Positions 2,919 through 7,861 of a DNA stretch of 9,733 bases are shown here, piece after piece. The DNA lies in the NCBI GenBank assembly GCA_900299205.1, contig OMIW01000002.1, positions 1 to 9,733 of the forward strand, written 5' to 3'. Origin of the DNA: Pseudomonadota bacterium (lineage in GTDB: Bacteria; Bdellovibrionota_C; UBA2361; OMIW01). How positions within the stretch are numbered: the stretch's first letter is position 1; each line of letters starts with the position of its first letter. The notes beneath the pieces are model-generated. The model ran no database searches and was not told the origin of the DNA. It worked only from the letters and a program-made list of their open reading frames with translations. Position numbers and translations under genes: made by a program.

Positions 2919-3926
2919 ATGGCGATTACCCTTGCGATTAATGGCTTCGGACGGATCGGACGAAATGTGCTTCGGCAAATTATCACCCGTAACCTCACCG
3001 ATACCTTCACCGTTGCAGCTATCAACGATCTGACCGATGCCGAGACCCTCGCGCATCTGCTCAAGTACGATTCAGTCCATGGCACCCTCAAGGAAGAGGT
3101 CGTCGCCGAGGATGGGGCGATTCGGGTCGGCGGCAAGGTCATCAAGGTGTACGCTGAGAAAGATCCCGCTGCGTTGCCGTGGAAGACCCTTGGGGTTGAT
3201 GTCGCCCTCGAGTGTACCGGCGTGTTCACCAAGCGTGACAAAGCGGCACTCCACCTTCAGGCAGGTGCTCGCAAGGTTCTTATCTCCGCGCCATCTCCTG
3301 ACCCCGATCTCACCCTCGCGTACGGCGTCAACCACGCAGCCTACAACGGCAGCGAGCATCAGGTTGTCAGCTGCGCCTCGTGTACGACGAACTGCCTCGC
3401 ACCAGTTGCAAAGGTGCTTCTCGAAAACTTCGGTATCGTGCGGGGTACGATGACGACGATCCACTCGTACACCAACGATCAACGGATCCTTGATCTGCCC
3501 CATAAAGACCTCCGTCGTGCCCGTGCGGCGGCGATGTCGATGATTCCGACAACGACCGGTGCGGCAAAAGCGGTGGGACTCGTCCTGCCGGCGCTGAAGG
3601 GGAAGGTCGATGGCTTTGCGATGAGAGTGCCGACCCCCGATGTCTCAGTGGTCGATTTTGTCGCAGAGGTTGAGCGTGACGTGACCGCTGCTGAGGTCAA
3701 CCTGGCCCTCAGGAGCGCCTCCGAGCAGTCGCTCAAGGGCATCCTCGGCTTTTGCGAAGAGCCACTCGTTTCGGTAGATTTCACAGGAGATCAGCGCTCT
3801 TCCATCGTGGATGCTGATTGCACGATGGTAATCGGAGGCCGGATGGTAAAGGTCATCGCGTGGTACGACAACGAGATGGGCTTCTCCGCACGGATGCTCG
3901 ATGTTTCGAAGCTCCTCGCGGCGTAA
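2919..3926 (+). CDS. gap: Glyceraldehyde-3-phosphate dehydrogenase, NAD-type
   Basis: This cytosolic glycolytic enzyme oxidatively phosphorylates glyceraldehyde-3-phosphate to 1,3-bisphosphoglycerate. The 335-residue length is standard for the family. The Rossmann fold starts with INGFGRIGR (7-15). Asp37 in IND (35-37) is the residue that normally favours NAD over NADP. The catalytic cysteine is Cys155 in SCASCTTNC (151-159), and the general-base histidine is His182 in TTIHSYT. The C-terminal signature WYDNEMGFS is intact. The start is ATG 2919, because AGGAGG lies 10 nt upstream and the product then begins directly with the nucleotide-binding fold; the frame extends further upstream but encodes nothing conserved. 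It precedes tpiA by 148 bp, with no pgk between them. Homology is unambiguous. Confidence 0.98.
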   Translation: MAITLAINGFGRIGRNVLRQIITRNLTDTFTVAAINDLTDAETLAHLLKYDSVHGTLKEEVVAEDGAIRVGGKVIKVYAEKDPAALPWKTLGVDVALECTGVFTKRDKAALHLQAGARKVLISAPSPDPDLTLAYGVNHAAYNGSEHQVVSCASCTTNCLAPVAKVLLENFGIVRGTMTTIHSYTNDQRILDLPHKDLRRARAAAMSMIPTTTGAAKAVGLVLPALKGKVDGFAMRVPTPDVSVVDFVAEVERDVTAAEVNLALRSASEQSLKGILGFCEEPLVSVDFTGDQRSSIVDADCTMVIGGRMVKVIAWYDNEMGFSARMLDVSKLLAA

Positions 3927-4074
3927 CGGATGAGGAGAGGAGGTTCGGGGGGGGGATCTGTTGGGGTTCCCGCCCCGTTTCGCTCCGATATGGCGAGTCC
4001 GAAGTCGTGCCCCGAGTTCCTACCTGTCGGTGCGGACGGGGCAATAACCACCAGACGCTCACACCGAGGCACCC
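3927..4074 (+). promoter_or_regulatory. gap-tpiA spacer with G-run and 7-bp stem
   Basis: The spacer contains a purine-rich stretch ending in nine consecutive G (3947-3955). It also has a perfect 7-bp inverted repeat, TGCCCCG (4008-4014) and CGGGGCA (4037-4043), separated by 22 nt. A GAGG Shine-Dalgarno (4066-4069) lies 5 nt before the tpiA ATG. No U-tract terminator or convincing promoter is visible, so gap and tpiA may be co-transcribed. Any regulatory role for the stem is speculation. Confidence 0.3.
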
Positions 4075-4869
4075 ATGACAACCGCCCATTCCGGTACCGA
4101 TATGCAATCGTTTCCCTGCTACCTCGTCGCCAACTGGAAAATGAGCCTCTCGACCCGTCAGTCGCTCGAGCTGGCGACCGCGTTGATGCACGAGGCGTCG
4201 ATGATGCCGATCCCCGACGACCTGCACACCTGGATCGCCCCTTCTTTTTTGGCGATTCCTGATATCGCACGAAAAGTTGCTGGGACGCGATTTCGGGTTG
4301 GGGGACAAAACCTCTGGCCTGAGCAGCACGGTGCGTACACCGGTGAGGTGTCGCCGACCCAGTTGAAAGAGATGGGGGCGACGTTTGTTATCGTCGGCCA
4401 CTCTGAGCGACGTTCGCTCGTACACGAGGGGGAGGAGCTGATTCGGCGCAAGGTGAAGTCAGCGATTACCAACGGACTCGCCTGTATCCTCTGTATCGGT
4501 GAAACCCGTGATGAACGAAAGGCGGGCAAGACCCTCGCCGTGCTCCGTTCCCAGATCACGAGCGCGGTCCTCGGCCTATCCCCGCATGAAGTACGGTCCC
4601 TCCTCATAGCGTACGAACCGGTCTGGGCGATAGGCACCGGGGAGGTCGCAACCACCGAACAGATCGCCGAAGCGCATACCACAATAAGCACGATCGTGGC
4701 TGAACTTACCACCGCCCGGTGTCCCGTTCTCTACGGCGGAAGCCTGAAACCCGAGAACGCCCCCGAAATACTCGCCCTGCCGTCGGTTCACGGCGGGCTC
4801 ATCGGGGGGGCCAGTTTGCAGTCGGGGTCGTACTTTGAGTTGGTACGAGCTGGGCTGGCGGGGATGTGA
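4075..4869 (+). CDS. tpiA: Triosephosphate isomerase
   Basis: This cytosolic TIM-barrel enzyme interconverts dihydroxyacetone phosphate and glyceraldehyde-3-phosphate. The 264 residues include the substrate-binding lysine in ANWKM (Lys22), the electrophilic His109 in VGHSERR (107-113) and the catalytic base Glu181 in AYEPVWAIGTG (179-189). The mobile-loop and phosphate-binding segments YGGSLKPEN and GGLIGGASL follow. The usual GAQN element reads GGQN (76-79), a mild variation. ATG 4075 is preferred because of GAGG 5 nt upstream. ATG 4102 would give a 255-residue protein closer to the common N-terminus but has no visible ribosome binding site. It lies downstream of gap on the same strand and ends 9 bp before the stop of a convergent small gene. 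Confidence 0.97.
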   Translation: MTTAHSGTDMQSFPCYLVANWKMSLSTRQSLELATALMHEASMMPIPDDLHTWIAPSFLAIPDIARKVAGTRFRVGGQNLWPEQHGAYTGEVSPTQLKEMGATFVIVGHSERRSLVHEGEELIRRKVKSAITNGLACILCIGETRDERKAGKTLAVLRSQITSAVLGLSPHEVRSLLIAYEPVWAIGTGEVATTEQIAEAHTTISTIVAELTTARCPVLYGGSLKPENAPEILALPSVHGGLIGGASLQSGSYFELVRAGLAGM

Positions 4870-5329: not shown

Positions 5330-6748
5330 ATGCCACACGCCCCCTCAATCTCACTCCGCGAAGTAGCGCATCTCCGAGGCCTCGCACTTGCCACTGGACA
5401 CGAGCACCCCACCCGCGACATCCGTCGCGGGCTCGAGGTTGTTCTGGAATACGCAGATCTTGAGCTTCACCGGCACGAAAAAGTGGCCTTAGGCGCGCTG
5501 CTTGACGAGCTTCAATTTGCAAACCGATTCCGAGGTGAGCCGACGTTCGCCGAGGGGGCGGGAGAGGAAGCGGGGACCCATAGCCTTCATGTCGCTCGGA
5601 TGATGGTCGCGGTCGCAGATGCCGCCTCGCAGCGGCTGAGTGTTGAGGGCTCCTCTGAACAGGTGCCCCGAGAATTTGTCCGCGATGCGATCGTGGCGTC
5701 GTGTCTTCACGATATGGGGGAGCTGTTTGGGGAATTTTCAACGGTGCGGGAGCGTGCCGAAAGGGGTGGTGTCGAGGAGTCGAGCGCGGAAAAGGAGCGG
5801 TTGATCTTTGTCGGTGCCGCGATGGTGGCGCTGCAGCTCGCCGAGCAGGGTCGGATCGATGAATTTGGTGGGATAATCGCGGGGCTTCGGAATAAGATCG
5901 GTGCCGATGTTACCACCCAGGCAGTCTGGAATAGCTTCGTCGAGGTGCAGCAGCATCTGCCCTCCCTCAGCCGAGCTGGGGAGCGTCGGCTCGATCGGTG
6001 GGTGAGACTGTATGAGGCCACTGAGGGTATCGGAAACCCCTCAGCGGAGGATCATTTTTTGGGTGTGTCCGTCAAGATGGTTGAGCAGCTTCAGGGTTCT
6101 CTCCACTATCATCGGTTTGGACGAAAACCCCCTTCTTTGGTTGATTTTCAGCTCGAGGGTCAGATTTATGAGCCTTGGTGTCCCAGTCAGGCGGATGCTA
6201 TTCGACACACCGAGCAGTTGCGGAGCCACATGGTGGTGGCGAATCTTGCGCGACTCGAGGGGAAGATAGGGAATTTGTGTGCGCTCGCGGTGAGTGGTCC
6301 GCAGCGGGCCATCGCCGCGGAGCTTCGGGAACGGGGATACTCTGCCGTTATCGAGTGGCTTGATGTCGCGACCCCTGTCATTAGTCGCTCCCTGCGGGAT
6401 CCCAATCCCGAGATCACTCGGCGGATAGCGGATGCATCGGATGAATCAGAGATCGCCGATGCCCTCCGTAGTGAGTATCGAGCGATGCTCTCGCAGCACC
6501 GTTCGTTCCGGGAACAGGAGGATAACTCCTCGAAGCTTCACCCGATAGAGACCCGTGTTCGCTTGCAATCGCTCTACCGTCAAGCGCTCGCGAGTGATTA
6601 TGAGCCACGTCCCGGCGAAATCCTCGCATTGGTCGATCAGATACCGGAGAGTCTCGTCCCGTTGCAACCGACCACCTCGGGATTGGCGCGGCGCCGTGCG
6701 CCACGAGCATCTTGGGAGTCTCCAAGCAAAGGCCGGGTAATTTCTTGA
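5330..6748 (+). CDS. HD-domain protein, probable metal-dependent phosphohydrolase, 472 aa
   Basis: This is a soluble protein with no signal peptide or membrane segment. Residues about 80-230 form an HD domain of the HD_3/YfbR-like type: His84 in THSLHVARMM, the His127-Asp128 pair in CLHDMGELFGEF (125-136) with the adjacent Glu131 common in this group, and a candidate fourth ligand, Asp222, in LDRWVRLYEA. Such domains hydrolyse phosphate esters, often nucleotides, but no substrate can be assigned here. The region 240-472 is long, largely helical-looking and charged, with no motif I recognise; the last 25 residues are basic. ATG 5330 is the start because an in-frame TAG lies at 5312-5314 and no other good start follows before residue 91. 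No Shine-Dalgarno is visible; the leader is pyrimidine-rich. It stands alone, divergent from the small gene and convergent with cutA-purN. Confidence 0.8.
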   Translation: MPHAPSISLREVAHLRGLALATGHEHPTRDIRRGLEVVLEYADLELHRHEKVALGALLDELQFANRFRGEPTFAEGAGEEAGTHSLHVARMMVAVADAASQRLSVEGSSEQVPREFVRDAIVASCLHDMGELFGEFSTVRERAERGGVEESSAEKERLIFVGAAMVALQLAEQGRIDEFGGIIAGLRNKIGADVTTQAVWNSFVEVQQHLPSLSRAGERRLDRWVRLYEATEGIGNPSAEDHFLGVSVKMVEQLQGSLHYHRFGRKPPSLVDFQLEGQIYEPWCPSQADAIRHTEQLRSHMVVANLARLEGKIGNLCALAVSGPQRAIAAELRERGYSAVIEWLDVATPVISRSLRDPNPEITRRIADASDESEIADALRSEYRAMLSQHRSFREQEDNSSKLHPIETRVRLQSLYRQALASDYEPRPGEILALVDQIPESLVPLQPTTSGLARRRAPRASWESPSKGRVIS

Positions 6749-6819: not shown

Positions 6820-6842
6820 ATTATTACTCGGGGAGTAAAAAT
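6820..6842. terminator. Hairpin spanning the cutA-purN stop codon, possible terminator
   Basis: A 10-bp inverted repeat with one mismatch (6820-6829 against 6833-6842, GGG loop; core TTACTC-GGG-GAGTAA) covers the last codons and the stop of cutA-purN. It lies in the 75-bp junction with the convergent HD gene. There is no proper U-tract on either strand, so terminator function is weakly supported. It may instead protect the 3' ends of the mRNAs. Confidence 0.3.
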
Positions 6843-7861
6843 CCTAAAGCGGCGCCACCCTGACGCGCTTCGGCTGATATCACAATACGATTATCTTCTG
6901 CTTGAATCTCTTTCCGGGCAATTGCGCCAATCACCCAGGGAAAAAGTCGGTGCTCATGCGCGAGGACCCGCGCCGCAAGCTCCTCTGGTGTGTCGGAACT
7001 GACGCAGGGAATAGAGACCTGAGCTATGATGGGGCCGGTATCAACTCCTCGATCAACTAGGTGTACCGTCGCCCCGTGTTCGGTATCTCCCGCTTCGAGC
7101 GCCCGCCGATGGGTATCGAGCCCGGGGTGTTTGGGGAGGAGCGAGGGGTGAATGTTGATGAGCCGCCCAGCGAACATATCGACGAACCACGGCTTGAGGA
7201 TCTGCATGAATCCTGCGAGCGCGACGATGTCGGGGGCGATGTCGCGGAGGGTGTCGGCGATCCGCTCCTGGCAGCGATGTGTCGTGCCTGAAGCTGTGCG
7301 GGGATGAGCGACTGTATGGATTCCCTGAGCGCGCGCGGCGGTGATAATGGGGGCCTCAGCGTTGTCGGAAATGACGGCTGCCACCCGATACCCTTCGTGG
7401 TGTTGGTGTTCGATAAGGGAAAGGGCGTTCGAGCCTCGACCGGATGCAAGAATCGCGACCGATGGGCGACAGACGGGCACGTCATGGGGATAGGGGGCAA
7501 CTTCGCCCTCGACCCATCGGCCAAATGCCGCTCCGTACTCAGCTGGCACCGCGATGATCGCGGGAAGCTCGTATGGATGAATCTCGATGAGGCGCCGCCG
7601 AACCGAGGGGAGCGCGGCACGGGTGGTTTTTATCTCGAGCTGCAGCTCCGGCTCGGTGGTGACGGTCCCTTCCCACCGATACGTTGACCTGACCGGCGAT
7701 ACGACCGATACGCACCCGCACAGCCGCTCAGCGACGAGGATGGTTGCGATCCGATCGGCGTCGCTTTCTGATGGGACGGTCGTTAAGACGATGATGCCCG
7801 AGGAGGAAGATGGCAACGACGCGGGAGACGGACGGGAGAGGGGTGGAGGACTGTCGTTCAT
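6824..7861 (-). CDS. cutA-purN: CutA1-like protein fused to phosphoribosylglycinamide formyltransferase
   Basis: This single 345-residue frame contains two domains. After a Pro/Ser-rich lead (1-22), residues about 23-117 are CutA1, a small trimeric protein named for divalent-cation tolerance: IIVLTTVPSESDA (23-35), LCGCVSVV (47-54), YRWEG (61-65) and HPYELPAIIAV (95-105). Residues about 132-320 are PurN, which uses 10-formyl-tetrahydrofolate to formylate GAR in purine synthesis. ASGRGSN (139-145) binds phosphate, and the catalytic residues appear as Asn236 and His238 in INIHPSLLPK and Asp274 in GVDTGPII. The linker (118-131) has in-frame GTG codons (for example Val128), so separate PurN translation is possible but lacks a clear Shine-Dalgarno. 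ATG 7861 has no visible ribosome binding site, and its leader is C-rich. The gene is divergent from mrp. Both domain assignments are secure; the functional link between them is unknown. Confidence 0.94.
   Translation of the reverse strand: MNDSPPPLSRPSPASLPSSSSGIIVLTTVPSESDADRIATILVAERLCGCVSVVSPVRSTYRWEGTVTTEPELQLEIKTTRAALPSVRRRLIEIHPYELPAIIAVPAEYGAAFGRWVEGEVAPYPHDVPVCRPSVAILASGRGSNALSLIEHQHHEGYRVAAVISDNAEAPIITAARAQGIHTVAHPRTASGTTHRCQERIADTLRDIAPDIVALAGFMQILKPWFVDMFAGRLINIHPSLLPKHPGLDTHRRALEAGDTEHGATVHLVDRGVDTGPIIAQVSIPCVSSDTPEELAARVLAHEHRLFPWVIGAIARKEIQAEDNRIVISAEARQGGAALGFLLPE

Follow-up and report, generated by a model that had tools for sequence, protein, structure and literature searches.

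A single reading frame joining CutA1 and PurN domains, probably a lineage-specific gene fusion in one bacterial genome

The locus and its reading frame

The stretch of DNA analysed here (the window) is one whole contig of 9733 bases from a genome of 2.45 Mb in 206 contigs. It contains an open reading frame in which a CutA1 domain is followed, through a short linker, by a PurN domain (Table 1). The initial annotation had located this frame exactly, leaving unstated that it lies on the minus strand, and its placement of the linker at about 7460-7500 was close to what is found. The translation has no internal stop, and the frame remains open from stop to stop for 383 codons.

Table 1. Features of the window and of related loci
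Feature	Position	Strand	Remarks
CutA1-PurN fusion ORF	6824-7861	minus	345 aa; ATG at 7861, stop at 6824-6826
Pro/Ser-rich N-terminal tail, residues 1-22	7796-7861	minus	low pLDDT, non-coding-like codon usage
CutA1 domain, residues 23-118	7508-7795	minus	PF03091, AlphaFold2, Foldseek
Linker, residues 119-134 (GEVAPYPHDVPVCRPS)	7460-7507	minus	C5 and C4 runs; out-of-frame TGA at about 7482-7485
GTG (V128), in frame	7478-7480	minus	about where the order's separate PurN proteins start (alignment)
PurN (GAR transformylase) domain, residues 135-319	6905-7459	minus	TIGR00639, invariant columns, pLDDT, Foldseek
11-base near-repeat, CCCGTCTGTCG CCCATCGGTCG	7455-7480	minus	at the junction; seen by eye
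LpxB + MsbA, one open frame	3-2762	plus	at least 919 aa, running off the contig start
gapA, then tpiA directly	2919-4869	plus	no pgk between
472-aa protein	5330-6748	plus	ASCLHDMGE motif
secG	8956		three genes between secG and tpiA
Gene X, example in locus L006	980-1315	minus	one of several
Gene X, example in locus L011	2273-2650	plus	one of several
Gene X, example in locus L018	2105-2545	plus	one of several
PurM-like frame, locus L253	1153-2295	plus	77.5 bits against a PurM cut-off of 236

Codon usage was scored with a model trained on homology-supported genes from the same genome. Frame 0 is favoured from about residue 13 through to the C terminus, the linker included (+0.12), and the frame that holds the TGA scores strongly negative in the linker (-0.55). 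At residues 1-22, the log-odds of frame 0 are negative. As these residues are without coding-like codon usage, the true start may be further downstream, for example at the TTG at residue 16, and the tail is probably untranslated, or translated in part. No Shine-Dalgarno-like word was found upstream of the ATG. That a single frame carries both domains intact, as had been claimed, is borne out by codon usage that is unbroken over the linker, by high-confidence folds, and by an assembly free of indel noise. One continuous fused reading frame with complete CutA1 and PurN domains is thus supported. The profile scores, the codon usage, and the predicted structures all rule out a chance ORF.

The domains are joined by about 13 flexible residues, for which pLDDT is low in both of the AlphaFold2 models described below. 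The letters at this point read gtt gcc ccc tat ccc cat gac gtg. Because the final GTG, encoding V128, stands at about the usual start position of PurN, the two proteins appear to be joined almost end to end, and this codon could possibly be a relic of the old PurN start, or an internal start. It has no Shine-Dalgarno-like word upstream, although only about half of the genes of this genome have one. The near-repeat that spans the junction is not a multiple of three in length; that it helped to shift or join frames here is only an idea, but it might have done so.

Among the other genes of the window, the 472-aa protein has a sub-threshold match to an HD domain (E 0.038) and no significant match in Pfam or NCBIfam.

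Two complete domains in one reading frame

The CutA1 and PurN domains were aligned and folded separately. The first matches the Pfam CutA1 family (PF03091) over residues 23-118, covering profile positions 1-97 of 99 with an E value of 1.6e-27 and 95.7 bits against a gathering score of 22.4; against the narrower NCBIfam CutA equivalog, NF041095, it scores 77.5, below the cut-off of 120. AlphaFold2, run on an alignment of CutA1 relatives, produced a monomer model with pLDDT of about 95 for residues 21-120. The top Foldseek matches of this part are all CutA1 proteins, with rmsd of about 1-1.6 Å, and the nearest solved CutA1 structures align over residues 24-110 of the fusion. Thus, the domain is full length, and its sequence and predicted fold agree with solved CutA1 structures.

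It is, however, a divergent member of its family. Its PF03091 score is the lowest of those compared, ten relatives scoring between 109.5 and 126.6 bits. Conservation was checked at C50, Y61, W63, E72, K78, H95, P100, W116, and the PE motif of the family. Ten residues that are invariant in the alignment are kept, including H95, Y97, P100, and W116, whereas the near-invariant A49, E101, and Y113 are lost. The low score and these three losses make it uncertain whether CutA1 function is retained. CutA1 stands alone in relatives, as a protein of about 100-120 aa, whereas here an enzyme is joined to its C terminus. The fused copy is the only CutA1 recognised in the genome.

For the second domain, the match to Pfam Formyl_trans_N extends over residues 135-311 (E 1.2e-46), and the NCBIfam PurN equivalog, TIGR00639, is matched with 177.9 bits, exceeding its cut-off of 150.1. 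Its catalytic residues, N236, H238, and D274, do not vary across an alignment with 17 relatives from the order; from a further alignment that includes E. coli sequences, we take them to be the counterparts of N106, H108, and D144 of E. coli. Modelled with an alignment of PurN relatives, residues 134-345 have pLDDT of about 95. GAR transformylases are the top Foldseek matches, and the nearest solved PurN structures align over residues 132-318. With an equivalog score above the cut-off, the catalytic Asn, His, and Asp in place, and a GAR transformylase fold, this part resembles the PurN family, and the initial description of it as catalytically intact holds. It differs in what precedes it: PurN is free-standing in every relative of the order and follows CutA1 here. 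An assignment as PurU was rejected, the score against TIGR00655 being 72.1 for a cut-off of 285.95 and the N-terminal domain being CutA1, not ACT.

The fused PurN is also the only copy recognised in the genome, and no PurT scored over its cut-off there, the best match to TIGR01142 being PurK. On these profile searches, the PurN part is the genome's only recognised GAR transformylase. PurK and PurE were both found. The PurM-like frame listed in Table 1 falls well short of the PurM cut-off; either PurM has diverged here or the assembly may lack it.

Gene neighbourhood and the search for other fusions

A CutA1-PurN fusion was found in none of the 27 other genomes of the order, in which cutA and purN are separate genes. 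They are nevertheless near neighbours in many: in 13 of the 27 (G001, G004, G007, G010, G012, G013, G014, G017, G018, G019, G021, G023, and G026), the two are co-directional with a gap of 0.42-0.78 kb, and in G003, they are about 1.6 kb apart. The gap is filled by a small divergent gene on the opposite strand, here called gene X, so that cutA and purN form no simple operon in these relatives. Gene X occurs in 23 of the 27 other genomes, usually beside purN or cutA. Its product, which has no match in a Pfam search, carries the motif RLPPVLPGEEV..GxKMRVWSSxGPVPV..VIVDxR and, by eye, a signal-peptide-like N terminus, and is probably a small secreted protein.

Gene X was not found in the fusion genome or in G008. 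The latter appears to be the closest relative among the genomes compared, judging from its PurN, which has the best identity to that of the fusion within the order (53%), and from a shared LpxB-MsbA open frame. In G008, cutA and purN are separate and lie on different contigs.

The initial annotation proposed that conservation in relatives be checked, and the answer is negative not only within the order. Searches of four phyla, about 450 genomes in all (45 of its own phylum, 77 and 40 of two others, and 291 of a fourth, at E ≤ 1e-36), and of 80 proteobacterial purN loci found no second fusion. Nor was one present among 101 PurN frames from the retrieved loci or in plasmids, where a match with 81% coverage proved to be annotated as another formyltransferase. 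In a scan of genome contigs, whose search patterns reach close relatives only, the best 80 matches all covered the PurN region only. A conserved CutA1-PurN architecture is rejected over these genomes, loci, and plasmids, and a literature search for a link between CutA and PurN found nothing relevant. What we have is most likely a singleton in which two known families are fused, private to one genome.

The genome sample yielded eight candidate fusions, of which the two in the window were taken as fusions; the six outside it were put down, on the table of matches, to reference stretches with cut ends or to multidomain matches. A different PurN fusion or extension is suggested by one family of another phylum (G154, G156, G158, G159, and G160), where the open frames that contain PurN are 470-514 aa long.

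Probable origin of the fusion and its possible meaning

The explanation that we consider probable is a genuine, lineage-specific fusion with a working PurN, in which the CutA1 trimer is most probably kept and the join is mainly a by-product of gene proximity. The ancestor would have had cutA and purN co-directional with gene X between them. Loss of gene X would have brought cutA up against purN, and loss of the cutA stop in frame would then have made a single chain of the two complete proteins, connected by a short flexible linker. PurN would catalyse its normal reaction, converting 10-formyl-THF and GAR to FGAR, while CutA1 most probably remains the usual trimer, with three PurN domains on tethers of about 13 residues from its C termini. 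By analogy with the known trimeric state of CutA1, it is plausible that the fusion trimerises PurN. We infer that the fusion arose mainly through gene proximity and not as a regulatory device. We favour a PurN that works while tethered to a CutA1 trimer, and do not assume sensing, because CutA1 keeps ten invariant residues and has nonetheless lost A49, E101, and Y113 and scores low.

The first alternative, which we regard as unlikely, is that the fusion is an artefact of sequencing or assembly: cutA and purN would be separate, abutting genes (cutA...TGA-c-GTG...purN), with one C lost from a C-run there. One extra C in the C5 or the C4 run would indeed close cutA with a TGA that lies 1 nt ahead of the V128 codon, an ordinary operon junction with a start in frame at about the usual PurN position, and the genes are separate in all relatives, with the fused frame in one genome only. 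The V128 GTG, however, has no ribosome-binding word in front of it, and by our reckoning, a stop in an alternative frame within about 20 codons is expected by chance about half the time. The quality of the assembly also counts against an indel. When about 0.6 Mb of the fusion genome was searched with proteins derived from relatives, no frame break was met in 130,569 homology-covered coding bases (385 queries with good matches), as in a smaller first pass. The 95% upper bound of about 2.3e-5 per base corresponds to about 0.1% per 60-base junction; summed over all co-directional neighbours, it still allows up to about one artefactual fusion per genome, so that the test lowers the possibility of an artefact and does not remove it. 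The result that was to count against the fusion has thus been obtained in half: cutA and purN are indeed separate neighbours in relatives, but apart from the short C-runs of the linker nothing points to a sequencing error, and an indel there is unlikely. LpxB and MsbA likewise form one open frame, of 1004 aa, in G008, while several other relatives have adjacent genes with one stop between them. Its recurrence in G008 independently confirms that at least one of the assembly's fusions between adjacent genes is real.

It is rather improbable that CutA1 is instead a decaying relic, a passive N-terminal appendage, with selection acting on PurN only, which might also be made from the internal GTG. 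The lowest CutA1 score of those compared, the three missing near-invariant residues, and the in-frame GTG at V128 would all fit such decay, but they have to be set against a full-length domain that retains ten invariant residues (H95, Y97, P100, and W116 among them), a fold predicted at pLDDT of about 95, and coding-like codon usage.

The least probable of the explanations is that a PII-like CutA1 trimer binds a small molecule in the clefts between its subunits and thereby controls or organises PurN. Similarly improbable is the wider proposal that CutA1 gives GAR transformylase a true module for allostery or assembly, a PII-like trimeric sensor placed on PurN in parallel to ACT in PurU. We know of no ligand for CutA1. 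PurU (formyltetrahydrofolate deformylase) consists of an ACT domain and a formyltransferase domain. It is the nearest architectural parallel, with a small ferredoxin-like domain N-terminal to Formyl_trans_N, and PurU structures are among the structure matches; that domain is ACT in PurU and CutA1 here, and the fusion scores far under the cut-off of the PurU model. In eukaryotic GART, a fused PurD-PurM-PurN polypeptide, PurN is also part of a longer chain, but its partners there are purine enzymes, whereas CutA1 is not known in the pathway. Enzymes and enzyme-like chains with PII/CutA1-like modules are known. The CutA1 trimer is suspected of small-molecule carriage or signalling in the work of Selim et al. 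(2021), as cited in PMC8469502, and a phage SAM lyase has a PII/CutA-like trimer (PMC7877911). In the NIF3/DUF34 family (YqfO, SA1388), a CutA1/PII-like trimeric module and an enzyme-like core share one chain: the PII-like domain of SA1388 forms trimeric lids (PMC1779786), and DUF34 proteins have CutA1-like inserts (PMC8469502). There, however, the module is inserted, its partner domain is unrelated, and the arrangement is conserved across many taxa, whereas CutA1 is N-terminal here. The proximity of cutA and purN in about half of the order also speaks for a sensor. Against it are the singleton nature of the fusion, the divergent gene that separates cutA and purN in relatives, and the divergence of CutA1 at three near-invariant positions. 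Neither ligand sensing by CutA1 nor regulation of PurN by it is supported here, and the earlier suggestion of metal sensing in particular is unsupported, since a metal role of CutA1 is disputed (Selim et al. 2021, as cited in PMC8469502) and those three residues are lost.

Read as a fusion of gene neighbours, the join offers a weak clue to the function of CutA, because the partner is simply its neighbour in the order and the fusion occurs in one genome only. CutA1 is nonetheless widespread and has no agreed function, and any natural fusion partner is therefore a testable hint. Should the fusion be a regulated trimer, it would provide an enzyme readout for a CutA1 ligand, and a role for CutA1 as a module of GAR transformylase, if true, would tie it to one-carbon and purine metabolism.
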